A stretch of DNA of 64,000 nucleotides, from NCBI RefSeq assembly GCF_002754475.1, contig NZ_PEFL01000001.1:558001-622000 (forward strand), written 5' to 3'. Source of the DNA: Comamonas sp. 26 (GTDB lineage: Bacteria; Pseudomonadota; Gammaproteobacteria; Burkholderiales; Burkholderiaceae_C). Below are positions 5,817 to 29,602 of the stretch, one piece after another; the first letter of the stretch is position 1; each line of letters begins with the position of its first letter. Below the pieces are notes generated by a model that did no database searches, was not told the DNA's origin, and worked only from the letters and a program-made list of their open reading frames with translations. The position numbers were made by a program, and so were the translations under genes.

Positions 5817-6269
5817 TTAACTGGCGCTTTTGAAACTGCCGTCCGTGGTGGCCAGGCGCTGCACGCCAGCGACATAGGCTTCGCCATCTGGCGCGCGGCC
5901 GGAGCGCTGGCTTTCCCAGAGCATCTGGCCCAGACACTCCATGGCGGCGTGGTGCGCGTCATGCAGATCACGCTTGCGGGTCAGCAGCTCTACGGCCTGG
6001 CGAATGCCACGCGGAGAATCCACGCTGCACTGTTCGCTGATGGACAGGTGCATGGACAGGTGCAAGAACGGATTGGTGCGTTCGGTCTCGGCGTCATAGT
6101 TGCGCGCAAGGGCGGCATCTACGTCGGAGAGCTCGTCAAAATACTCGGGGTGCTCGGCGATCCACAGGCTGGCCAGCGTCTCGATGGCCTCCATGGGCCC
6201 GCCGCTGATCATCTTGGCGCGCACACCGCAAAAAAATCGCCGTACGTCGGCTTGACTGGGGTTGAACAT
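5817..6269 (-). CDS. DUF1841 family protein
   Basis: 150 residues from ATG 6269, beginning MFNPSQADVRRFF, the characteristic opening of DUF1841. The frame is open another 30 codons but that extension would overlap the upstream antiporter gene. Other conserved blocks are HPEYFDEL, NPFLHLSMHLSI and HDAHHAAMECLGQMLWE, rich in His and acidic residues. The function of the family is unknown; it is a soluble cytoplasmic protein common in beta- and gammaproteobacteria. It follows the KefB/C-type antiporter by 16 bp, so it is probably cotranscribed with it. Confidence 0.88.
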   Translation of the reverse strand: MFNPSQADVRRFFCGVRAKMISGGPMEAIETLASLWIAEHPEYFDELSDVDAALARNYDAETERTNPFLHLSMHLSISEQCSVDSPRGIRQAVELLTRKRDLHDAHHAAMECLGQMLWESQRSGRAPDGEAYVAGVQRLATTDGSFKSAS

Positions 6270-6285
6270 GATGGCGCGCAGCGTA

Positions 6286-8196
6286 TCACGGCTGCTTTGA
6301 GTCAGCTGGGCTGTGGTTTTGCTCGCTGACGGTGGGTTTATCAGGTGCATCGGACTCATCAGGCATTTCTGTACTGTTCTCCAGCAGGTCGGCGCGCTCT
6401 TTGGCCATTTGCTCCACCAGTTGCTGGCGGCCTTGTTTGGAGACGGCGATCAGCTTGTTCTTGTCCTTGTAGTGCGGGTACATGCGCTCGGCCAGTGCCA
6501 GATTGTGTTCTCTGAAGCGAGCTGTCATGTGGCGTGCATCTGCCGGGCTCTGGCCGATCAACTCCAGCACCGACTGGGCAGACACAAGGCTGGATTCAAA
6601 CACTTCACGCTGGGCGTGCTCCACACCCAAGTCGCGCAGGCGGAACCAGTGATTCAGATCGCGGCTGCGGGCCACAATTTGCAGGTTGGGGAAATGCTTG
6701 CGCACCTGGCTGGCAATCTTGATGGATTGCTCGGGCGAATCCACCGCAATCACCAGCACGCGGGCCTTGGCGGCACCGGCAATGCGCAGCAGGTCCATGC
6801 GCGTGGCATCGCCATAAAAGACGCCATGGCCGTAGATTTTGGCGGCCTCCAGCATTTCCACGTTGTGGTCGAGGATGGTGGGGCGTATGTCTTGCGCCAG
6901 CAGCACGCGGGCGACGATCTGACCATAGCGGCCAAAGCCGGCAATGATGATGGGCGCTTCTTGCTGCTCTGAGATTTCCTTGGCTTTGCTGGATTCAGCG
7001 TTGTCGTCCTTGATGGTGGAGAAGCGGCGCAGCAGCAACTTGTCCAGTACGACCAGCAGCAGCGGGCCCAGCAGCATGGACAGGGCGACGGCCGCCACCA
7101 GCATGGATGAGACATTGTGGTGAAACACCTTGTACTGGGCGGCAGTCTGGAACACCACAAAGGCAAATTCCCCCCCTTGCGCCAGCATCAGCGTAAAGAC
7201 GGGGCGCTCGCGCCAGGGGATTTGCATGAAGCGCGCTAGACCAAAAATCATCAGCGCCTTGAGGGTGATGAAGCCCGTCACCATGGCGGCCATGGCCCAG
7301 GGCGACTGGAGGATGACGCCAAAGTCAATGCTCATGCCCACGGCCATGAAGAAGAGGCCCAGCAGCAGACCCTTGAAGGGTTCGATATTGGTTTCCAGCT
7401 CGCTGCGGTACTCGCTGTCTGCCAGCAGCACACCGGCCAGAAACGCGCCCAGCGCCATGGACAGGCCCACTTGCGTCATCAGCATGGCAATGCCCACGAC
7501 CAGAAGTAGCGAGGTGGCGGTAAAAATCTCGGGCGTCTTGCTGCGCGCAATCCATCGCAGCAGGGGTTGCAGCAGCAGGCGGCCGCCAATGATGACGGCG
7601 GCAATTGTGCCCACGGTCTTGAAGATGGTCAGCCAGAGATGGCTGTCGGTGTGAGTGGCGTTGGCCACCTTGTAGGCCCCCAGAATGGGAATCAGCGCCA
7701 GAATGGGGATGGCAGCTACGTCCTGGAACAGCAGGATGGAGAAGGCAGCTTGCCCGCTGGGTGTGCGCATGAGGTTGCGCTCTGCCATCACCTGCAGGCA
7801 GACGGCGGTGGACGACAGGGCCAGGCCCATGCCTGCAATCAGGCTGACACGCCATGTAAAGCCAAAGCCCCAGGCTGCCAGAAACAGAATGCCGGTGCAG
7901 ACCATCATCTGAGCCAGACCCCAGCCAAAAATGGGCCGTCGCAGCTCCCACAGCCGCTTGGGCTGCAGCTCAAGGCCGATCACGAACAGCATGAGCACCA
8001 CGCCAAACTCGGCAAAGTGCAGGATGTCCTCGACATTGCTCACCAGCCCAAAGCCCCAGGGGCCCATGGCAATGCCCGCGCCAAGGTAGCCAATGATGGA
8101 GCCTAGCCCCAGTGCTCTGGCAATAGGGACGGCGAGCACTGCCGCCGTCAGGTAGATGAAGCCGTAAGTCAGCCAGATTGGGGAGCCGTGTTCCAT
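6286..8196 (-). CDS. KefB/KefC-type CPA2 cation:proton antiporter with TrkA-N domain
   Basis: 636 residues. The first about 385 form 12-13 membrane helices of the Na+/H+ exchanger (CPA2) fold, including the conserved GYLGAGIAMGP segment. A Rossmann-type TrkA-N domain (IIIAGFGRYGQIVA, from about residue 415) binds nucleotide and gates the channel in KefC relatives. The last 60 residues are a polar tail. Such proteins export K+ (or Na+) in exchange for protons, often during electrophile stress. No KefF/KefG-type quinone reductase partner is nearby, so calling it a true glutathione-gated KefC would be unsafe. It is probably cotranscribed with DUF1841. Confidence 0.88.
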   Translation of the reverse strand: MEHGSPIWLTYGFIYLTAAVLAVPIARALGLGSIIGYLGAGIAMGPWGFGLVSNVEDILHFAEFGVVLMLFVIGLELQPKRLWELRRPIFGWGLAQMMVCTGILFLAAWGFGFTWRVSLIAGMGLALSSTAVCLQVMAERNLMRTPSGQAAFSILLFQDVAAIPILALIPILGAYKVANATHTDSHLWLTIFKTVGTIAAVIIGGRLLLQPLLRWIARSKTPEIFTATSLLLVVGIAMLMTQVGLSMALGAFLAGVLLADSEYRSELETNIEPFKGLLLGLFFMAVGMSIDFGVILQSPWAMAAMVTGFITLKALMIFGLARFMQIPWRERPVFTLMLAQGGEFAFVVFQTAAQYKVFHHNVSSMLVAAVALSMLLGPLLLVVLDKLLLRRFSTIKDDNAESSKAKEISEQQEAPIIIAGFGRYGQIVARVLLAQDIRPTILDHNVEMLEAAKIYGHGVFYGDATRMDLLRIAGAAKARVLVIAVDSPEQSIKIASQVRKHFPNLQIVARSRDLNHWFRLRDLGVEHAQREVFESSLVSAQSVLELIGQSPADARHMTARFREHNLALAERMYPHYKDKNKLIAVSKQGRQQLVEQMAKERADLLENSTEMPDESDAPDKPTVSEQNHSPADSKQP

Positions 8197-8388
8197 GGGG
8201 AGTGTTGTTTGGTGTTTACCCTAGACGGATTCCATTTTGGCACCCAGGATCATATTTTTGCTTTTGACCGCACGAAAAGTGGAATGAATTGCTGCCTGCT
8301 GCTTATATCGTCAGGTCAACTGTGCGTCTGCAAGTTGATGGCGCAACTTTTAAGATAGCGGTTTTGTGACTGGGTACTTGGGACTGGT

Positions 8389-9021
8389 ATGGATTTGCAC
8401 ACATGGTTCGCGTTTTTTGTGGCTTCCTGGATCATTGCGGTGTCGCCGGGGTCGGGGGCGGTGCTGTCCATGAGCCATGGCCTGTCCTATGGCGTGCGCA
8501 AGACCAGCGCCACGATCATGGGGCTGCAGCTGGGTTTGCTGCTCATTTTGTTGATAGCAGGGGCTGGCGTGGGTTCGCTGCTCATGGCATCGGAATGGGC
8601 GTTCAACGCTGTGAAGATTGTGGGGGCTTGCTATCTGATTTATCTGGGCATCAGCCAGTGGCGCTCGGGCGGTTCGCCGCTGGCCACACAAGAGGCCATG
8701 CCTGAAGTCAGCCTTAAAAAACGGGTACTGACCGGTTTCTTGACCAATGCCACCAACCCCAAGGGCATCATTTTCATGGTGGCCGTGCTGCCCCAGTTCA
8801 TGACCACCAGCCGCCCGCTGGCGCCTCAGCTGGCCATTCTGGCTGTGACCATGCTGGCGGTAGATACCACTGTCATGCACAGCTATGCAGCCGGTGCCAG
8901 CGCCTTGCGCGGCCTGATGCGCAGCGCGCGGGCCATGCGCAATCAAAACCGCATCTTTGGCGGCTTGCTGATGGCGGTGGGTGCTGGCCTTTTCTTTGTA
9001 CAGCGCGGTACCGAGGCTTGA
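8389..9021 (+). CDS. LysE/RhtB family amino-acid exporter
   Basis: 210 residues with six predicted membrane helices. The N-terminal block SPGSGAVLSMSHGLSYG is the conserved SPGP-like signature of the LysE superfamily, and helix 3 carries GACYLIYLGISQW, also typical. Family members export lysine, homoserine, threonine or homoserine lactones; the substrate cannot be told here. It diverges from the antiporter gene across 192 bp that must hold both promoters. The 130 bp after it contain a degenerate sequence resembling the nested repeats seen elsewhere in the window. Confidence 0.88.
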   Translation: MDLHTWFAFFVASWIIAVSPGSGAVLSMSHGLSYGVRKTSATIMGLQLGLLLILLIAGAGVGSLLMASEWAFNAVKIVGACYLIYLGISQWRSGGSPLATQEAMPEVSLKKRVLTGFLTNATNPKGIIFMVAVLPQFMTTSRPLAPQLAILAVTMLAVDTTVMHSYAAGASALRGLMRSARAMRNQNRIFGGLLMAVGAGLFFVQRGTEA

Positions 9022-9152
9022 TCTGCTTTTAAAACCATAGCTTTCTGCGCTTTACTGCATTGGGCTTGAGGCGTATTTTTCTTTGAATTCAGGGTAAGCC
9101 CCTTGTCCCGCGTCAGACATGGCGCAGGGCAGGGGGCTTCTACATTCAGGGC

Positions 9153-9617
9153 ATGAAAACCTTTCGCTCCTACTCCGAAGTGCTGGCCTCAATTGGGCAG
9201 GAAGTCGCCGTCAGCGACTGGATCGCCATTAGCCAGGCACAGATTCAAATGTTTGCCGATGCCACGGGCGATCAGCAATGGATTCACACTGACCCGGAGC
9301 GCGCCGCCAAGGGCCCGTTTGGTGCGCCGATTGCCCATGGCTTTCTGACGCTGTCGCTGTTGCCCCGGTTTTTTGAGTCCACCTTTGCCATTGAAGGCAC
9401 GAAGATGGGCGTGAACTACGGCCTCAACCGTGTGCGTTTTGTCGCTCCCGTGCCGGTCAACAGCCGCTTGCGTGCCCGCATGACCTTGCAGCATGCCGAA
9501 CGCGTGGAGCCTGACGGCATTCAGATGACCTGGCTGGTCACGGTGGAGCGTGAAGGCAGTGACAAGCCGGTATGCGTGGCGGAATCGCTGGCGCGCAGCT
9601 TTGGCGCTGCAGCCTGA
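9153..9617 (+). CDS. MaoC-family (R)-specific enoyl-CoA hydratase-like protein
   Basis: 154 residues forming one hot-dog domain. The hydratase-2 catalytic motif is seen as FADATGDQQWIHTDPERA (Asp and His about residues 35-42), followed by the PIAHGFLTLSLLP block. Such enzymes add water to trans-2-enoyl-CoA to give (R)-3-hydroxyacyl-CoA, linking beta-oxidation and polyhydroxyalkanoate synthesis, or act in other acyl-CoA pathways. It stands alone between terminators, so no pathway can be assigned from context. A phasin gene at 56439 suggests that the organism makes PHA. Confidence 0.88.
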   Translation: MKTFRSYSEVLASIGQEVAVSDWIAISQAQIQMFADATGDQQWIHTDPERAAKGPFGAPIAHGFLTLSLLPRFFESTFAIEGTKMGVNYGLNRVRFVAPVPVNSRLRARMTLQHAERVEPDGIQMTWLVTVEREGSDKPVCVAESLARSFGAAA

Positions 9618-9644
9618 ATTTCTCTGCATTGATCCGACCATGAA

Positions 9645-9674
9645 AAAAGCCCCAAGGGTTTCCTTGGGGCTTTG
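9645..9674. terminator. bidirectional intrinsic terminator
   Basis: Arms AAGCCCCAAGG and CCTTGGGGCTT pair perfectly around a GTTT loop, with A-tract and T-tract flanks. It lies between the convergent MaoC and DUF4148 genes. Confidence 0.9.
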
Positions 9675-9695
9675 CTGTCTGAGGGGCCGGGTGCT

Positions 9696-10004
9696 TTATT
9701 CACCGTAGCTGTCCAGCAGACCGGCCTTTCCGGCGGCTGCGGTTTCCTGGCGTACCTGTTCGCGGCTGAGAGTGGAAGACTGCTGGGACTGGGAGGAAAG
9801 AGACAGGTAGGAATCTCCGAACTGCAGTTCACCCTTGGCCATGGCATCGATGGCCTGTGCTTGCACTTGGGCACGGGTCAGTGTGGAATGGCTTTCGGCC
9901 TGGGGAGGGTAGTGGCCGCTGGTGAAGTCCAATCCTCCAGCCTGTGCGGCGGCGGCAGACATGGCAAGTGTGGCAACGATGGCGAGACGGTTGGCGTATT
10001 TCAT
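9696..10004 (-). CDS. DUF4148 domain-containing exported protein
   Basis: 102 residues. A clear signal peptide (residues 1-22, ending AQA) precedes a small domain with the two DUF4148 repeats LTRAQVQAQAIDAMAKGEL and LSREQVRQETAAAGKAGLL. The family is a periplasmic or secreted small protein of unknown role, very common and multi-copy in Burkholderiales; a second copy is at 63611. It has its own upstream region of 151 bp after trmL and a terminator directly downstream, so it is probably monocistronic. Confidence 0.88.
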   Translation of the reverse strand: MKYANRLAIVATLAMSAAAAQAGGLDFTSGHYPPQAESHSTLTRAQVQAQAIDAMAKGELQFGDSYLSLSSQSQQSSTLSREQVRQETAAAGKAGLLDSYGE

Positions 10005-10155
10005 GATGCGTCCTTAGTTGGCGTGACTTGCAGTCCTGGCGGATATCGTCGGTTGGCTGCAATCGATAGGTGCTACTGTAGGCCGATGCAATCAGAAGAA
10101 AAACCCCCGGAGTCGCAACTTATCGTTCCATGAACAGTGCTAATTTTGCGGGAAC

Positions 10156-10650
10156 TTAAGGTGCGGGAACTGGCTCTGCCAACGCAGCTCCCACAAAGCC
10201 CTGCTGACGCCAGGCTTCAAACACGGTGACCGCTACGGCGTTGGACAGGTTCAGGCTGCGCTGTGATGCCAGCATGGGCAGGCGCAGGCGCTGCTCATTG
10301 GGGAACTGGGCGCGCACATCGGCAGGCAAGCCTTTGCTTTCCGAGCCAAAGACCAGCCAGTCGCCTGCTTTGAAATGAATAGCATGAGCCGGACTGCTGC
10401 TGTGCGTGGTCATGGCAAACATGCGGTCACGCTGAGGCTGGCAGGTTGCGATGAAAGCTTCCCAGTTGGCGTGGCGGGCCACGTTGGCATACTCGTGGTA
10501 GTCCAGACCGGCACGACGCATGTGGCGGTCTTCCATGGAAAAGCCCAGCGGCTCAATCAAATGCAGGCTGCAGCCCGTATTGGCAGCCAGGCGGATGACG
10601 TTGCCCGTATTGGGTGGGATCTCGGGCGCCACAAGAACGATATGAAACAT
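10156..10650 (-). CDS. trmL: tRNA (cytidine/uridine-34 2'-O)-methyltransferase TrmL
   Basis: 164 residues, the normal length of TrmL. The SPOUT knot motifs are visible: the N-terminal PEIPPNTGNVIRLAANTG block, the middle VFGSESKGLP motif, and the C-terminal LRLPMLASQRSLNLSNAVAV block that forms the AdoMet-binding knot. The enzyme methylates the wobble-base ribose of tRNA-Leu isoacceptors. It lies 73 bp downstream of comF on the same strand, so it may be cotranscribed with it. Confidence 0.93.
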   Translation of the reverse strand: MFHIVLVAPEIPPNTGNVIRLAANTGCSLHLIEPLGFSMEDRHMRRAGLDYHEYANVARHANWEAFIATCQPQRDRMFAMTTHSSSPAHAIHFKAGDWLVFGSESKGLPADVRAQFPNEQRLRLPMLASQRSLNLSNAVAVTVFEAWRQQGFVGAALAEPVPAP

Positions 10651-21924: not shown

Positions 21925-22059
21925 TGCTGCCGCGCATAGTTGGTGCTTTCAAACACTTGGCAAGGCTTCTCGCCGCGAGCCAGCAGATACATATCCTCTG
22001 ATGTTGCATGAGGGGGTTCTGCACGCAGGAACGCCAGAGTGAATGTCTGGAGCGCTTGT

Positions 22060-23838
22060 ATGGCTGAATGCCCTTTTTCTTCAATGCATGAGCCTGTGTC
22101 CGAGGTAGCACTGGCGAACTGTCAGCGTCGACTGGGTCTGGCGTTTTCTGCATGGCAGGATGAGCTGAGCCTGCCTTCCATGCTGCTGACCCAGCGTGAG
22201 CGCTATGCGCTGGATTCTGCGCCTGATGGAATCTTGCTGGTGGGGCGGGATGGGCGCATCGTGGTGGCCAATGCAGCCATGCAAGTCATATCTGGCTATG
22301 AATGCAGCGAGCTGGAAGGGCAGGTGCTCGACATCCTGCTTCCATCCGATGTTCAGGCGACGCATGGTCACTACCTGCGCAGTTATTTTTCTCAGCCCTC
22401 GCGCCGCCCCATGGGGCTGGGGCGCGTTTTATGGCTGCAGCGAAAGCAAGGTAGTGCCATGCCTGTCGACATTGCGCTGGGGTTTTTTGGCGAAGATGGA
22501 AAGGGCTTGGCTGTAGCCTTTGTTCGGGATGTGACGGAGCTGCACCAGATGCAGCAACGTCTGAAGTTTCAGGCTACCAAGGACACGTTGACCGGCCTTA
22601 ACAACCGCTGGCAGTTTGGTCAGGAGCTGCAGGAGCAGCTCAAGATCGCTCAGGCCGACGATGACTCAATGGCCCTGCTGCAGCTGGATCTGGATAACTT
22701 CAAGGCTATCAATGACGGTTACGGGCATGCCGCAGGTGATCATCTGCTCAGAGAAGTCGCCCGACGCCTTAAATCTCAACTGCGCAGCGAAGGTGTTCTG
22801 GCCCGGCTCGGAGGTGATGAATTCATCGTGATGCTGGCGGGGGAAAACGCCGCCCGAGCGAAATTTTGGAGCGATCAGATTCTGGCCGCGCTGTCCATTC
22901 CTTTCAAACATGATGGGCTAGCGCTGGATTTCGGGGCCAGCATTGGCATCGCGCTGTATCCCGATGATGCGCAGACTGGCGATGATCTGATGCGGTTTGC
23001 CGATATGGCCATGTACAGCGCCAAGGCGCGGGGTCGTGGCAATGCCGTGTTTTTCGAGCCCTGCATGGGTAAGGAAATGGCCGAGCGTGTGCAGCTGGCC
23101 GAGCGCCTGCGCATGGCGCTCAGCTACGGAGGGCTGCAGCTTCATTACCAGCCGCAGGTCAAGGTAGAGAGTGCAACCGTGGTGGGTGTAGAGGCCTTGC
23201 TGCGCTGGCATGACCCGGTGCTGGGGAATGTCAGTCCTGTGCGTTTTATTCCGGTGGCGGAGGCTTCCGGACAGATTGTGGCCTTGGGCAACTATGTGCT
23301 TGATGCCGCTTGCAAGCAAATTTCCTTATGGCTCAAGGCTGGTACGCCGCTGCGCGTAGCGGTCAATCTCTCGGCACATCAGTTAAGGCAGGTGAATCTG
23401 GTCGAGCAGGTCAGCAGTTGTTTGACGCGGTATGAAGTGCCGCCGCAATGGCTGGAGCTGGAGGTTACGGAGTCGCAGGCCATGTTGAACCTCGAACAGG
23501 GGCGTGAAGTGCTGCAAGGGCTGGCACGGCTGGGGGTGACGATTGCACTCGATGATTTTGGCACCGGCCATTCATCGCTGGCTTATCTGCAATATCTGCC
23601 GCTGCAGCGCATCAAGCTGGGGCGGGAATTTTTGTCTCCATCTCCCTGCCGGGACCGACTGATGGGCGGCATTGTGCACATGGCCCATGCCCTCGATCTG
23701 GAGGTCGTAGCAGAAGGCGTGGAAGAGGTCGAACAGCTGCAACTGCTGCGCAACATTGGCTGTGAATTCTTTCAAGGCTGGCTGCATTCCCGCGCCATGC
23801 CTGCCGAGCAGTTAGACGCGTGGTTAGCCGTGGTCTGA
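22060..23838 (+). CDS. PAS-GGDEF-EAL cyclic di-GMP signalling protein
   Basis: 592 residues from ATG 22060, which has GGAG seven bases upstream; a GTG at 22039 is in frame but less well placed. Domains: PAS (about 45-165), GGDEF (170-335) with the active-site GGDEF intact at 251-255 but no RxxD inhibitory site before it, and EAL (350-590) with E378-A-L. EAL catalytic blocks are mostly kept (VNLSAHQL, ELEVTES, LDDFGTGHSS, VVAEGVEE, FQGW). The usual KID motif reads KLG. No membrane helix is seen, so it is a cytoplasmic sensor that may make or break c-di-GMP. It is probably a lone gene inserted between sco and rpoH; it converges on the operon 23861-28426. Confidence 0.92.
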   Translation: MAECPFSSMHEPVSEVALANCQRRLGLAFSAWQDELSLPSMLLTQRERYALDSAPDGILLVGRDGRIVVANAAMQVISGYECSELEGQVLDILLPSDVQATHGHYLRSYFSQPSRRPMGLGRVLWLQRKQGSAMPVDIALGFFGEDGKGLAVAFVRDVTELHQMQQRLKFQATKDTLTGLNNRWQFGQELQEQLKIAQADDDSMALLQLDLDNFKAINDGYGHAAGDHLLREVARRLKSQLRSEGVLARLGGDEFIVMLAGENAARAKFWSDQILAALSIPFKHDGLALDFGASIGIALYPDDAQTGDDLMRFADMAMYSAKARGRGNAVFFEPCMGKEMAERVQLAERLRMALSYGGLQLHYQPQVKVESATVVGVEALLRWHDPVLGNVSPVRFIPVAEASGQIVALGNYVLDAACKQISLWLKAGTPLRVAVNLSAHQLRQVNLVEQVSSCLTRYEVPPQWLELEVTESQAMLNLEQGREVLQGLARLGVTIALDDFGTGHSSLAYLQYLPLQRIKLGREFLSPSPCRDRLMGGIVHMAHALDLEVVAEGVEEVEQLQLLRNIGCEFFQGWLHSRAMPAEQLDAWLAVV

Positions 23839-23860
23839 AGAACTTATGACGGGTGACGGT

Positions 23861-24778
23861 TCATTGGGCGGCTTCAGCCGTCTTATGCATCTTGGCCAGT
23901 TCGCGCGCCGGAATTGGAAGCTCACCGCTGGCCATGCGCGCAAGCAGCGAATGCAGCATCTCGGTGGACAGCCCGTGCAGCACCAGACGGTAAGCCGCAT
24001 AAAGCGTTGAATCTGGAACCATGGGGTGCTTGTTATTGAGCAACACCAGATGTTCGGGCGAGGCCAGAATCTTGGCGCAGTAAATGCCCAGGGTTTCATC
24101 CAGCTGCAGCGAGTTGCTGGCGCGCCAGAAGTCGTTGTCGGTCAGCAGCAGCTGGTAGATGGGCGTGTACAGCTCAATGGCGCTTTGCAGATCGATGACG
24201 TTGAAGCGCCCGCGCGGCATGTCTTCGAGCTTGAGTTCGGGCTCGTGAATCATCGAGAAATCGGGCTCTGCGACAGCGAGCAGCTCTTGCTTGTTTTCAC
24301 GCAGCGCCTTGTTCAGGCGAATCACAAAGTTGAAGAGGTTGAGGTCGTGCTTGAGGAATAGCTCCTCTTTCACATCGTCAATTTCCATGGGCGTCAAAGG
24401 CGTGGTGCTGACCTTGGTAGGCGAGTTAGCCGCCACAAACTGCAGCACCTGAGAGCCCAGGTGAAAGTGCCGCATGATGAGCCAGTTGGCCTCTGGCGAG
24501 AGAAACTTCTTCATGCCAAAAGCCAGCATGCGGTGCAGCAAGATGGAGTGTGACCAGCGCTTTGGCAGAAAGATTTTCAGCGCCTGAATGAGGATCATCG
24601 ACAGGCGCGCCAGCGGCCGCATGGCGGGCAGAAAAAACTGGCGCGAGCTGCTGCTGCAGTCGCGCAGCCAGGCGGCTTTGACGTCATCGGGCAGTGGCGT
24701 GCTCTGATCCAGGTAGAGGGCCAGCCAGGGGCTGGGGTCGCGCTCGTCCCAGACATGGTCGTTGAATTCGTTCTTCAT
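23861..24778 (-). CDS. uncharacterised protein of the KAS III-diiron oxidase operon
   Basis: 305 residues, no signal peptide. The sequence is mostly helical with a hydrophobic region near 50-75 (LARLSMILIQALKIFLP), then MLAFGMKKFLSPEANWLIMRHFHLGSQVLQF, a mid part with DDVKEELFLKHDLNLFNFVIRLN, and a C-terminus rich in Leu. I do not recognise a family with confidence. It is the last gene of the minus-strand operon, 24 bp after the KAS III-oxidase gene, so its product most likely works in that pathway, perhaps as a carrier, partner or tailoring protein. It could also be a membrane-associated helper. The gene converges on the GGDEF-EAL gene with a 22-bp gap. Confidence 0.6.
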   Translation of the reverse strand: MKNEFNDHVWDERDPSPWLALYLDQSTPLPDDVKAAWLRDCSSSSRQFFLPAMRPLARLSMILIQALKIFLPKRWSHSILLHRMLAFGMKKFLSPEANWLIMRHFHLGSQVLQFVAANSPTKVSTTPLTPMEIDDVKEELFLKHDLNLFNFVIRLNKALRENKQELLAVAEPDFSMIHEPELKLEDMPRGRFNVIDLQSAIELYTPIYQLLLTDNDFWRASNSLQLDETLGIYCAKILASPEHLVLLNNKHPMVPDSTLYAAYRLVLHGLSTEMLHSLLARMASGELPIPARELAKMHKTAEAAQ

Positions 24779-24802
24779 CAGGCTGTCCTGCTCGTCTTGT
24801 TT

Positions 24803-26734
24803 TTATTCGGCCAGCACATGCTGGAACTGCATCAGATACATGGCCGCCGTGTGGCGGGCGGTCTGCAGTATGGCTTGCTGGGCCGAGCCTTCGGTGTCCA
24901 TGTCCAGCGCCATCTGCACGGCGATCAGCCAGCGCTCCAAATGGTTCTCATCATTGGCACCGTGATACTCCAGAAAGCGGAAGGCATCGGGCGGCAAGGG
25001 CAGGGCAGCGCGCAGCAGCGGCAGCAGGCTGGGCACGATGCGCTGGCCCGTGCCTTCAATGATGTAGATGGCGCCCAGCAGGCCGATGGGGTTGGGCGTG
25101 GCGGCAAGGCCGTGCAGATAGGCGTTGAGTGCCTCACCGCCGGGGTTGCGGCGCAGTTTGCTGATATCGGTTTCGGCACCGCCCGCCTTCAGGTAGTCGC
25201 TGTGCAGAATTTTGAAGTCGTTTTGCTCTTCACCGGCGTGCAGGTCGATGAGAGAAGCCAACGTGGCGTAGTCGCCCGTGAGCGATGCTGCGCCTTCGCG
25301 CATCCACAGGCTGCCTTCGCGCACTTGGGGAATCCAGTGGCTCATCCAGCGCACATAGTCGCTGCTTTGCAGCTCGCGGGTGCGAATGCGGCGCAGCAGT
25401 GGCGTGCGCCAGACATTGCTGCGGTAGTCCTGCCAGATGCTGGCCAGCTCGGTCAGCAGTGGGGCCAGCTGCTGCGGCGCGGTGGCCGGGTCGTGCGGAG
25501 CGGCGATAGTGGAGACATCGGGCAGGGCATCGTTGGCAATCGTTTCAGCGGCGGCAGTTTTATGAGGGAAATCGGCCTGTAGCGCTTGATTGGCGGGTGC
25601 ATCCAGCTCTACTTCCCATAGCATGTAGCCGGCAGTGAAGCGGCCTGACTCGGGGATGAAGCAGAGCACGGTGTCGCCCGCTTTCAGGCGCTTGCCTTCT
25701 TTCTGCAAAAACTCCGACATCATGATGAAGATGGAGGCCGCGCCCGTGTTGCCACGCCAGGTTAGGTTGCTCCACCAGCGATCACGCGGGATGCTGAGCT
25801 GGGCTTTGCCCAGCAGATCATCGACGACGGGGATGAAGCGTTCTGACGAGTAGTGGCACAGAAAGTGGTCAATGCCGCGCTCGGGCACCCAGCCTTTGTG
25901 GGCGAGGTCGGCGTACTCGTGAATGCAGACGTCAAACAGGTGTGGCAGCAGGCGAATGTCCTGGCGCAGAGACAGCGCACCGGCTGCCTCGGCATCGCCC
26001 CAGGCGGGGAAGTCCAGATGGCTTTTGCTGCGATCTGGCGTTAAGCCCAGCTGCATGCAGACGGGGTAGTCGCCTGCAAAACTGCGCTGGTGCGTCCATT
26101 TCAACTTCAAGCGCAGGCCATTGGCTTGCGGCAGGGCCTTGGGGCCACCCAGCAACACCGCACCTGCGCCATCCGACAGCATCCAGCGCAGAAAGTGGGC
26201 GTCAAAGTCAGTGTTGTAATCCTGAGCGGCGAAGCGCGAGCGCTTGAACAGGCGCGATGGCATCTCGCTGGCAACAGACAGCGCCAGTGAATGGGCACAG
26301 CTTTCCACAGCCATGGCTGCGGCCTGCATGGCCCCCACGCTGGCGGCGCATACGCCGTGGACGGACAATGTTTCCATGGGCGGGGCAGCCATCTCGCCCT
26401 GAATCATGCTGGCAAAGCCGGGCATCAGCGCATCGCCTCCCGATGAACCGCTGGAGAGGTAGCCCACATCAGCGAGCGTTTTGCCAGCCAGCGCCAGTGT
26501 TTCTGTAATTGCGCCTGCGGCCATCTGCGTGTTGCTGAAGACGGTCTGGCCTGCGCCATCGATGGCGTAGTAGCGTTGCTGAATGCCGTTTTCCGCCAGG
26601 ATGCGTTGCTTGATGCGCCCGGATATGCGGTTCAGCGGAGCGACATATGCATCCATGCCAGCGTTATCCACCGGAGAGCCAGGCAGGAACATACCGGCAG
26701 ATTGAAGATAGACGTTTGAATAGGCAACAGGCAT
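24803..26734 (-). CDS. KAS III-like condensing enzyme fused to a haem-oxygenase-like diiron oxidase domain
   Basis: 643 residues. Residues 1-380 form a thiolase-fold beta-ketoacyl synthase III with the full triad: Cys129 (SVHGVCAASVG), His294 (FLCHYSSERF) and Asn329 (WRGNTGAAS). An Ala/Pro-rich linker (385-425) leads to an all-helical C-terminal domain (430-643). That domain shows His/acid-rich HAGEEQNDFKILH (499-511), Glu560 (YIIEGTG), and the H591-x3-D595-x2-H598 set (EYHGANDENH), as in haem-oxygenase-like diiron oxidases such as CADD, UndA and SznF. I infer acyl condensation coupled to an oxidation, for example decarboxylation. It lies between the FA desaturase and the 23861 gene. The product is unknown. 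Confidence 0.82.
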   Translation of the reverse strand: MPVAYSNVYLQSAGMFLPGSPVDNAGMDAYVAPLNRISGRIKQRILAENGIQQRYYAIDGAGQTVFSNTQMAAGAITETLALAGKTLADVGYLSSGSSGGDALMPGFASMIQGEMAAPPMETLSVHGVCAASVGAMQAAAMAVESCAHSLALSVASEMPSRLFKRSRFAAQDYNTDFDAHFLRWMLSDGAGAVLLGGPKALPQANGLRLKLKWTHQRSFAGDYPVCMQLGLTPDRSKSHLDFPAWGDAEAAGALSLRQDIRLLPHLFDVCIHEYADLAHKGWVPERGIDHFLCHYSSERFIPVVDDLLGKAQLSIPRDRWWSNLTWRGNTGAASIFIMMSEFLQKEGKRLKAGDTVLCFIPESGRFTAGYMLWEVELDAPANQALQADFPHKTAAAETIANDALPDVSTIAAPHDPATAPQQLAPLLTELASIWQDYRSNVWRTPLLRRIRTRELQSSDYVRWMSHWIPQVREGSLWMREGAASLTGDYATLASLIDLHAGEEQNDFKILHSDYLKAGGAETDISKLRRNPGGEALNAYLHGLAATPNPIGLLGAIYIIEGTGQRIVPSLLPLLRAALPLPPDAFRFLEYHGANDENHLERWLIAVQMALDMDTEGSAQQAILQTARHTAAMYLMQFQHVLAE

Positions 26735-26750
26735 AGATCCTCGACAGGTT

Positions 26751-27683
26751 TTACTTCACATCGTCTGGCGGCATTTGCGGCTGGGTTCTTGCCGCAGGCC
26801 AGATCAGACCTAATACAAACACGCGTCCCATATAGGGCAGCAGGCCACCCTCGTTCAATGCGGGCGTAACTCGCTGGCGGTAAATGCGCTCATGCAGCGT
26901 GGCCAGATCAGACCAGTGAGCATGCGGGCATTCATGGTGCGCGGTGTGCAGGCCAATATTAAAAAGCAGGGGGTTGACCAGCCCCTCAAAGTTGCGGGCG
27001 TAGTTCAGCTCGATACCCGGAGTATTGCGCTGCGCTCTGGACAGCGGCCTGCCATCGGCATGGGCGTGCTGCAGGTAGTTGGTGGCTAGCAGCCAGTGCA
27101 GACCATGCAACTGGGGGACGATGATAAAGATCAGCGCCTTTTGCCAGTCCAGCCACAGAAAAAATCCCCAGCTACCCAGCCATAGCGCGTACTGCCCCAT
27201 GCAATAGCGGAATGCGCCGGGCCAGCGAAGGCGCAGATTGTTCAGCCAGCGAAAGAACATAGGGTACAGCACCACAGCCGCCTGCACGGGGTGGATGAGG
27301 TAGCCCCAGAGGTGATTGGTATCACCGCCAAACTCAGGCCGGTAGGTGCGCACCAGATCGCGCGGGCCGTGGCGAAAGCGGTGGTGATTGGCCACATGGG
27401 CGGGCCAGAACACAAAGGTGGGGTGGCCTTGTAGCAGGGTCAGCCAGTAGTCGGTGGCGCGGTTCGTCCGGCGGCCCCACCACATGCGCACATGGGTGTG
27501 GTTGTGGTGAATGACGCCCACGCCCAGCGTTAAAAACAGCTCAATGCCGTAGAGGATGAGGTTGAAGCCATGCGACCACTGCCACCAGACGATCAGCGGC
27601 AGGATGAGCATGTAAAACACGGATTGCCAGTCGCGCCAGTGGCGCAGAGTGGGAAGCAGACGCTGGCCGGGGTGTTGGCTCAT
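26751..27683 (-). CDS. membrane fatty-acid desaturase/hydroxylase
   Basis: 310 residues. Membrane helices alternate with three histidine boxes: HHNHTH near 60, HVANHHRFRH near 98-107 (HxxxHH), and HTAHHECPHAH near 245-255 (HxxHH), with a NYLQHAHADG block between. These are the metal ligands of membrane diiron desaturases and hydroxylases (FADS-like fold). It probably acts on an acyl chain bound to lipid or carrier. The start overlaps the sterol-desaturase-like stop by 4 bp, so both are translationally coupled, and 16 bp separate it from the KAS III fusion gene. Confidence 0.85.
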   Translation of the reverse strand: MSQHPGQRLLPTLRHWRDWQSVFYMLILPLIVWWQWSHGFNLILYGIELFLTLGVGVIHHNHTHVRMWWGRRTNRATDYWLTLLQGHPTFVFWPAHVANHHRFRHGPRDLVRTYRPEFGGDTNHLWGYLIHPVQAAVVLYPMFFRWLNNLRLRWPGAFRYCMGQYALWLGSWGFFLWLDWQKALIFIIVPQLHGLHWLLATNYLQHAHADGRPLSRAQRNTPGIELNYARNFEGLVNPLLFNIGLHTAHHECPHAHWSDLATLHERIYRQRVTPALNEGGLLPYMGRVFVLGLIWPAARTQPQMPPDDVK

Positions 27684-28426
27684 TCAGCGGCAGATGCGCG
27701 GGTATAGGCGGTCTTGACCTTGGTGCCCATGATCTGATCCATAAAGGGCAGCGCAAAGCCATAGTTGCCCGCAGGCCGTGAATGGTGCAGATGGTGGCGA
27801 CGGCTTGCTGCCAGAGGGTGCGTGTCAGGCACTTTGGGGAAAAAGTCGTAGTTGGAGTGGCCGATGAGATTGAGGATCAGACTCAGCACCGGCACTGACG
27901 CCAGCGACCAGAAGTAGAAATCATGCACAACCATGGGCAGCAAAATAATGTTGCCCAGCATCAGCGCCTCAATCGGGTGAAAGCTGTAGGTGGACCACGG
28001 CGTTGTCACAACGGAGCGATGGTGGTCGCCGTGATAGCGCACCAGCTGGCGGGTATGCAGCAGACGGTGGTTGATCCAGAAGTGCACATCGTTCCAGATC
28101 AGCAGCACGGCAATCTCCAGTGCAATGCGACCTGCACTGGCATCGGGTGTCAGGTGTGCCCAGCCCAGTTGCAAAAAGCCCCAGGGCACGATCATGCCGA
28201 GGCCGAAAACCAGAATCGAATGAAACGACTGACGCCATTCACGCCCTAACTGATCGGGCTTGAGCGGGCGCGTATCGAGTACCTGACCGATGCCAAGTCG
28301 AGAAAGCCCGGACGTCAGCATGCTCATGAGCAGGCCGCCCAGCAGATAAATGCCACCGAAAAAAACCAGCCCCAACAGCATGACTTGCCAAGCGTTGAGT
28401 TGCGTGAACCAGGTACCAGCGTCCAT
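27680..28426 (-). CDS. sterol desaturase/fatty-acid hydroxylase superfamily protein
   Basis: 248 residues with several membrane helices. Histidine boxes are present: HFWINHRLLH, YHGDHHRS, and the late RRHHLHHS block, plus HSNYDFFPKVP, all typical of the sterol desaturase family, which uses a diiron centre to hydroxylate or desaturate lipids. GGAG precedes ATG 28426 by six bases. It is the first gene of the operon, so the promoter lies in 28427-28612. The substrate is unknown; the presence of a second diiron membrane enzyme and a KAS III suggests a modified acyl product. Confidence 0.85.
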   Translation of the reverse strand: MDAGTWFTQLNAWQVMLLGLVFFGGIYLLGGLLMSMLTSGLSRLGIGQVLDTRPLKPDQLGREWRQSFHSILVFGLGMIVPWGFLQLGWAHLTPDASAGRIALEIAVLLIWNDVHFWINHRLLHTRQLVRYHGDHHRSVVTTPWSTYSFHPIEALMLGNIILLPMVVHDFYFWSLASVPVLSLILNLIGHSNYDFFPKVPDTHPLAASRRHHLHHSRPAGNYGFALPFMDQIMGTKVKTAYTRASAAE

Positions 28427-28612
28427 GAAGGCTCCGTAAACAGCGGGGCAGCCTGATAAAAAATGCGCCCGATGGCATAGCGTAAAAGCATGCCTGTCGA
28501 GCGCATGATATCTGAGGCGGTAGTCGCTCTATTTGATACCGAGCGGAGCTTCACCAGAGACGCCTAGCAAAAACCAAGCGTTTAAAACTAGCGCGCCAGG
28601 GCCTCCGGCGGC

Positions 28613-29602
28613 TTATTGCGACGTGATGTGCTGGTCGCGAATGATGGCGCCCAGTGCCTTTACATCCTGCTGAATGCGGTTCTGCAGACCTTCAGGCGAG
28701 CTGCCCACAGCTTGCCAACCTTGCATGGAAAGCTTCTGGCGCATTTCAGGCGTGCGCACAATTTCGCTGACGGCAGCGGCCAACTTCTCGACGTGGGCCT
28801 TGGGCATGGACTTGGGCGCGGCCACGGCGTTCCAGATTTCCAGATCAAAGTTGTTGACGCCCAGATCCTTGAGGCTGGGCAGGCCGGGAGCCAGCGGGCT
28901 GCGGGCGGCAGAAGTCACCGCAATGCCGTGCAGCTTGCCTGCCTGAATCTGCGCCATGGCCAGAGCCGGGGGGAGCATGGACAGCTTCAGGTCGCCGCCC
29001 TGAATGGCATTGAAAACCTGTGGGTAGCCGGTATAGGGCACATGCACGGCCTTGATGGCAGAGCGGCTCTTGAGCAGCTCCATGCCCAGATGGCCTACGG
29101 TGCCCACGCCTGGGGAGCCGTAGCTCCACTTGTCGCCCGCTTGGGCTGCGGCTTCCATGAAGGCTTTGCCTTGTGGTGCCGATGCGGGAGCCACCAGCAC
29201 CAGCGGGGCCACGCCAATCAGGCTTACGGGCTGCAAGTCCTTAATGGGGTCATAACGCACGGCGGGATTGAGCATCTTGGCGATGGTCATATTGCCGTTG
29301 ATCATCACGCTGAAGGTGTAGCCGTCAGCCTTGGCCACGTATTCACCCGCAATATTGCCGCCAGCGCCCACGCGGTTTTCCACGATAACCGTCTGGCCCA
29401 GCTTCTTTTCCAGTGGCTCGGCCAGTGCGCGGGCTGTGAGGTCAGGGGAAGAGCCAGCGGGGAAGCCCACAATCAGGTGCAGGGGCTTGTCGGGCCAGTT
29501 GTCAGCGGCCATGGCAGCGGGGGCCAGCGTTGCGGCCATCAGGGCGGCCCCGGCGGCGACCAGACTGCGGCGAGACAGATTCTTCAAAGTGCGTGCGTGC
29601 AT
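28613..29602 (-). CDS. Bug-family tripartite tricarboxylate transporter substrate-binding protein
   Basis: 329 residues from ATG 29602. The N-terminus has a twin-Arg-type signal (LSRRSLVAAGAAL) ending in AMAA. The mature part has the Bug/TctC pattern: WPDKPLHLIVGFPAGSSPDLTARALAEPLEKKLGQTVIVENR with the first ligand loop, NIAGEYVAK, and VGTVGHLGMELLK. Bug receptors bind carboxylates or amides in the periplasm, and are extremely numerous in Comamonadaceae, often with no transporter next to them. No TctA/TctB genes are near, so this is an orphan receptor. The ligand cannot be told. Confidence 0.92.
   Translation of the reverse strand: MHARTLKNLSRRSLVAAGAALMAATLAPAAMAADNWPDKPLHLIVGFPAGSSPDLTARALAEPLEKKLGQTVIVENRVGAGGNIAGEYVAKADGYTFSVMINGNMTIAKMLNPAVRYDPIKDLQPVSLIGVAPLVLVAPASAPQGKAFMEAAAQAGDKWSYGSPGVGTVGHLGMELLKSRSAIKAVHVPYTGYPQVFNAIQGGDLKLSMLPPALAMAQIQAGKLHGIAVTSAARSPLAPGLPSLKDLGVNNFDLEIWNAVAAPKSMPKAHVEKLAAAVSEIVRTPEMRQKLSMQGWQAVGSSPEGLQNRIQQDVKALGAIIRDQHITSQ

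Follow-up and report, generated by a model that had tools for sequence, protein, structure and literature searches.

A conserved gene set pairing a DarB-like ketosynthase with a haem-oxygenase-like domain and DUF6999 suggests an acyl-derived biosynthetic pathway

In a 64,000-nucleotide stretch of the Comamonas sp. 26 genome (contig NZ_PEFL01000001.1, positions 558,001 to 622,000), hereafter the window, four minus-strand open reading frames (ORFs) at 23861-28426 combine two membrane enzymes, a ketosynthase (KS) fused to a haem-oxygenase-like diiron oxidase (HDO)-type domain, and a DUF6999 protein. They are spaced by -4, +16 and +24 bp, and a first-pass annotation, made from the sequence letters alone, had read them as one operon with exactly these coordinates. 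The accessory genes come first, encoding a 248-residue FA_hydroxylase-family (sterol-desaturase-type) membrane enzyme (27680..28426; PF04116, 78.9 bits, cut-off 31) and a 310-residue FA_desaturase-family membrane enzyme (26751..27683; PF00487, 58.9 bits, cut-off 29.7). Both had been described as membrane enzymes, and a His-cluster type agrees with the family scores and with the conservation of the His residues in at least 84 of 85 hydroxylase and at least 83 of 84 desaturase sequences. Next is the KS-HDO fusion, a single 643-residue ORF (24803-26734) in which ACP_syn_III_C (PF08541, 30.4 bits, cut-off 26.6) and Haem_oxygenas_2 (PF14518, 34.9 bits, cut-off 28.9) are both recognized, bearing out the fusion of a condensing enzyme to an HDO-type domain. 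The last gene, a core member of the set, encodes the 305-residue DUF6999 protein (23861..24778).

The ketosynthase half comprises approximately residues 1-380 (25595..26734), with C129, H294 and N329 as the catalytic residues. Among NCBIfam models it scores highest against NF005293 (StlD/DarB; 304.1 bits, cut-off 450), followed by NF053539 (DarB; 242.8 bits, cut-off 550), and its best match among solved sequences is StlD (5gk0, E value 1.4e-58). FabH-type models give only 61 and 47 bits, and the N-terminal ACP_syn_III model PF08545 remains under its cut-off (14.4 of 24). A tree was built from 26 ketosynthases: 19 from loci that carry the triad of KS, HDO and DUF6999 (12 of them fused), six DarB-like, and a FabH-like row whose placement is unsure. 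The 12 fused ketosynthases group together in a single clade (support of 99/100), and all 19 triad ketosynthases are split from the six neighboring DarB-like ones (92/89). C129, H294 and N329 are invariant in the triad, DarB and FabH-like rows, as well as in 50 aligned sequences including the window's own, and the Cys-His-Asn triad is shared with StlD/DarB along with common invariant motifs. Profile, solved sequence and tree thus place the ketosynthase in a branch sister to the StlD/DarB dialkylresorcinol synthases, from which it differs in lying under both curated cut-offs and in forming its own clade. Likewise, ketosynthases of split relatives, in which KS and HDO are separate genes, stay under the NF005293 and NF053539 cut-offs (372.1 and 330.6 bits in Pseudoalteromonas; 297.2 and 260 in the alphaproteobacterial locus L132). 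The name 'KAS III' (beta-ketoacyl-acyl carrier protein (ACP) synthase III) in the first-pass annotation therefore has to be replaced: an ordinary FabH/KAS III is ruled out by a StlD/DarB score about five times that of the best FabH-type model (304 versus 61 bits) and by the DarB neighbor in the tree, and membership of the StlD/DarB branch suggests a different reaction.

The class search also supplied 11 short DarB-like loci for comparison, in four of which (L006, L008, L010 and L013) DarB is adjoined by a protein that carries an SQTGQ motif early in its sequence; by its position, we take this protein to be DarA, two copies of which matched no Pfam model. With a DarA-like query, matches were obtained in all four DarB control genomes and in one of 19 triad genomes. 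The window's genome gave no match in this search or in one run without controls, and a DarAB or aryl-polyene pathway whose DarA lies at a distant site of that genome was rejected on this ground. DarB-like loci further contain a BtrH-like gene (in L010 by Pfam), and the darA-darE set of Azoarcus includes such a gene (PMC3949708, partial text). DarAB loci have DarA, darD and BtrH-like neighbors, and loci of the window's type have HDO and DUF6999 instead. DarB-type enzymes join a beta-ketoacyl thioester to an alpha,beta-unsaturated acyl thioester, and dialkylresorcinols, the products of the DarAB pathway, are described as serving bacterial communication (PMC4578411, partial text).

The HDO-type half covers residues 421-643 (24803..25474) and is predicted to adopt the haem-oxygenase-like fold with a diiron site. 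E560, H591, D595 and H598, which the first-pass annotation had singled out together with Cys129, His294 and Asn329, are all invariant in the 50 aligned sequences; in 19 aligned HDO sequences H499, H591, H598, E560 and D595 are invariant, and position 473 is E in 16 and D in three. H499 and E473 probably complete the set of metal ligands, the latter being a presumptive third carboxylate because E503 and D506 are invariant too. By sequence, this set fits the 3H/3C type (three His, three carboxylates) of HDO ligands (PMC13108848, partial text). A C-terminal half lacking a diiron site had been named as an outcome that would overturn the annotation; instead, at the level of sequence, this half shows a fold of the HDO kind and residues that match such a site, in line with the Haem_oxygenas_2 score. 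In fold and residue set, this half resembles the HDO superfamily (UndA, CADD, SznF, HrmI, AetD, FlcD), with 12-18% sequence identity to its structural matches. It differs in having a ketosynthase as partner, a pairing that was not found in the open-access literature searched. The HDO of the Pseudoalteromonas triad falls below PF14518 even at an E value of 0.1, yet aligns with the other HDOs.

Both OleA and PpyS have the FabH fold and join two acyl chains (PMC4578411, partial text). In a rival reading the product is linear: by simple condensation of two chains head to head, the ketosynthase would form a beta-keto acid or a ketone, which the HDO would cleave or decarboxylate as UndA does fatty acids, yielding an alkene, a ketone or a shortened chain. 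Against this stand the StlD/DarB model as the best-scoring ketosynthase subfamily, and the fact that TenA and haem oxygenase match the HDO half at least as well as UndA does. OleA-type sequences are matched only weakly (best approximately 0.002), the PDB entries behind these matches being taken as OleA. The catalytic glutamate of these enzymes, E105 in PpyS and E117 in OleA (PMC4578411, partial text), apparently has no counterpart here when counted from the Cys, PpyS and OleA not being part of the alignment: the residue standing 24 positions before the catalytic Cys, as E105 does in PpyS, is P105, which is invariant in the rows of the tree. A linear product is considered unlikely.

The fourth protein, left as unrecognized and without a role in the first-pass annotation, proved to be recognizable as a clear member of Pfam DUF6999 (PF22523, 420 bits, cut-off 27), and its place as a conserved member of the operon was upheld. 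DUF6999 is a family without assigned function that is not mentioned in the open-access literature searched, and its association with KS and HDO comes from the present analysis. Its structural model is all-helical (predicted local distance difference test score, pLDDT, 88.7; predicted template modeling score, pTM, 0.88), and no convincing structural relative was found in the structure comparisons. Across 12 diverse members, the invariant residues include R103, H104, N118, H144, D145, D196, N222, D227, H268 and E273, which suggests an enzyme, perhaps a metal-dependent one.

When a DUF6999 alignment was scanned against one genome per species (84,980 species), 480 stretches were confirmed, and the 80 most similar were kept for comparison, a sample biased towards the window's form because its members are the closest. 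They come from 34 Variovorax, 19 Achromobacter, 15 Comamonas, four Delftia, two Acidovorax, two Bordetella and single other genera. Hydroxylase, desaturase, KS, HDO and DUF6999 lie on one strand and in that order in 77 of these 80 loci, a recurrence far beyond chance, and KS and HDO share a single ORF in 78. For the 76 loci in which a simple gene caller recovered the complete set of four genes, the gaps have medians of 0, 16.5 and -4 bp and range from -41 to 127, 3 to 35 and -20 to 51. The exceptions are a Corticibacter locus with only KS-HDO and DUF6999 (L057) and two Variovorax loci (L104, 3803-5427; L110, 9183-10846) in which the hydroxylase adjoins DUF6999 without KS-HDO or desaturase. The neighboring genes differ among the genera compared, so that it is the cassette, not the region, that is conserved. 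In one locus, L048, the cassette is 80-89% identical to that of the window although the record is titled Pantoea sp. 18069, a label that may be wrong.

Less-selected genomes give a different picture of what belongs together. DUF6999 was sought in 229 class, 200 family, 398 phylum and 289 alphaproteobacterial-class genomes and is present in 6, 6, 9 and 6 of them, respectively, which overlap and amount to 21 different genomes; with the window's own genome and G224 excluded, one locus was read from each of the other 19. KS, HDO and DUF6999 are adjacent in that order in 17 of the 19 (tblastn), with KS and HDO fused in nine (L030, L034-L037, L129-L131 and L134) and separate in eight, namely six alphaproteobacteria (L132, L140-L144) and two members of the window's GTDB class (L031 and L133). 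The fusion is thus not required. Seven of the nine fused loci have both desaturase and hydroxylase, L131 has only a desaturase in two pieces, and L030 has neither; no hydroxylase or desaturase occurs within the stretches read at the eight split loci (only 5.8 kb for L140), so that within the 19-locus sample the two membrane enzymes are confined to the fused form. Judged by gene order, the conserved unit is therefore the triad KS-HDO-DUF6999. The four-gene set that the first-pass annotation had taken as the unit, and for which it had called for a genome survey, recurs among close relatives as stated above, but only seven of the 19 less-selected loci have all its parts, and its core is smaller. 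Beyond the 17 triads, L032 carries DUF6999 (9389-10285) but neither KS nor HDO within its 19.5-kb stretch, and L033 (1305-2355), which may have decayed, retains no more than fragments of a ketosynthase and of DUF6999. Among the control genomes, that of Caulobacter vibrioides has matches to DUF6999 and to PF14518, so that, from these genome-level family matches, this well-studied laboratory species may hold a split triad.

DUF6999 also occurs in one of 72,556 plasmid records, an annotated 801-kb Pseudoalteromonas replicon with a split triad in the same order; at this frequency, plasmid cargo is ruled out. On this replicon (L145, 4621-5178) and in L133 (12453-13001), both from gammaproteobacteria, a 185-residue His-rich and apparently membrane-bound protein is encoded directly upstream of KS. 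The two copies are 64% identical over 183 residues, no Pfam or NCBIfam model matched the one from Pseudoalteromonas, and the protein may take the place of the hydroxylase or the desaturase.

Two further readings were weighed. In the first, the genes would serve lipid remodeling or membrane adaptation: the hydroxylase and desaturase would work on chains bound in phospholipids, and the product would be a structural lipid of the membrane in modified form, not a secreted or signaling compound. This reading draws on the presence of two membrane enzymes from lipid-modifying families, on the chromosomal location and conservation of the gene set, and on L132, where the triad is followed by a 1133-residue protein (6197-9598) that by eye resembles an acyltransferase or acyl-ACP synthetase. 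None of the further loci examined for such a protein had one, no dedicated head-group, acyltransferase or carrier gene is common to the loci read, and the eight split loci lack the membrane enzymes; we consider this reading rather improbable. In the second, the HDO half would be a protective or iron-handling domain that does not act on the ketosynthase product. The precedent is DtpC of Acinetobacter, a protein with an HDO-like domain that supports desiccation tolerance, for which its authors weigh iron sequestration, reactive-oxygen scavenging and protectant synthesis (PMC13232832, partial text). The gene for DtpC is co-transcribed with a catalase (PMC13232832, partial text), and no such partner is seen here. 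The constant pairing with a ketosynthase and the fusion in many lineages point instead to a shared pathway, leaving a protective or iron-handling role highly improbable.

The genes probably serve acyl-derived biosynthesis of some kind. We favor, with a probability of about 0.42, an O2-dependent relative of the DarAB pathway in which HDO and DUF6999 take the place of DarA. The ketosynthase would condense two acyl thioesters as DarB does, giving a cyclohexane-1,3-dione or a similar compound; the HDO, with O2, would then oxidize the condensed product, perhaps by aromatizing or hydroxylating the ring, and so replace the aromatase DarA. DUF6999 would perform a third step or work with the oxidase, and the desaturase and hydroxylase would tailor the acyl chains, the end product being an oxidized dialkylresorcinol- or dione-like lipid. 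In the fused form, the acyl chain would be oxidized on the same protein that condenses it.

It should be noted that several observations weigh against this O2-dependent DarAB relative. The ketosynthase scores are short of both DarB-type cut-offs (304 of 450 and 243 of 550), the support of 92/89 for the split from DarB lies just below the star limit of the tool with the root unsure, and the ketosynthase half of the structural model is of low confidence, too poor for active-site geometry. One triad genome (G349) does have DarA, on a different contig from the triad, and another genome, G913, is only 74% complete. DUF6999 stands by itself in L032 and has just the hydroxylase beside it in L104 and L110, so its role may be separable. 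Finally, the reaction of the HDO is not readable from its sequence.

As to the surroundings of the operon in the window, genes for a TctC-like binding protein and for rpoH lie upstream in the same direction. Between the TctC-like gene, which it directly follows, and the hydroxylase gene, a terminator-like hairpin (28594-28610, minus strand) fits a separate operon. Terminator-like sites in 23600-29000 number four, compared with a mean of 3.9 in shuffles, and no sigma-70-type promoter was found in the same interval, both results being little informative. In the window, Rfam gave no family at or above its gathering score. Downstream, a PAS-GGDEF-EAL gene (22039-23838) runs towards the operon, the two stop codons being 22 bp apart, and several loci of Comamonas and Delftia likewise have such a gene close to the cassette.

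Each enzyme type in the set, except DUF6999, is of a known kind. As the first-pass annotation had suspected, no characterized system with this gene set was found in the literature searched, which was open-access only, so that a subscription paper could be missed. It is tentatively proposed that the triad, which extends across Alpha-, Beta- and Gammaproteobacteria, represents a new class of acyl-condensing pathway: an O2-activating diiron domain would receive the product straight from a DarB-like ketosynthase, and DUF6999, whose invariant His, Asp and Glu residues lie on several helices, would act as a third, metal-dependent enzyme. If so, there would be a new family of oxidized cyclic lipids and an HDO acting on a ketosynthase product, for the study of which these loci offer a compact two- to four-gene system. 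The gene set also puts DUF6999 in a functional setting. Given that 480 stretches encode a DUF6999 relative and that the 80 compared include Comamonas, Delftia, Variovorax, Achromobacter and Bordetella, many common bacteria may produce the metabolite.
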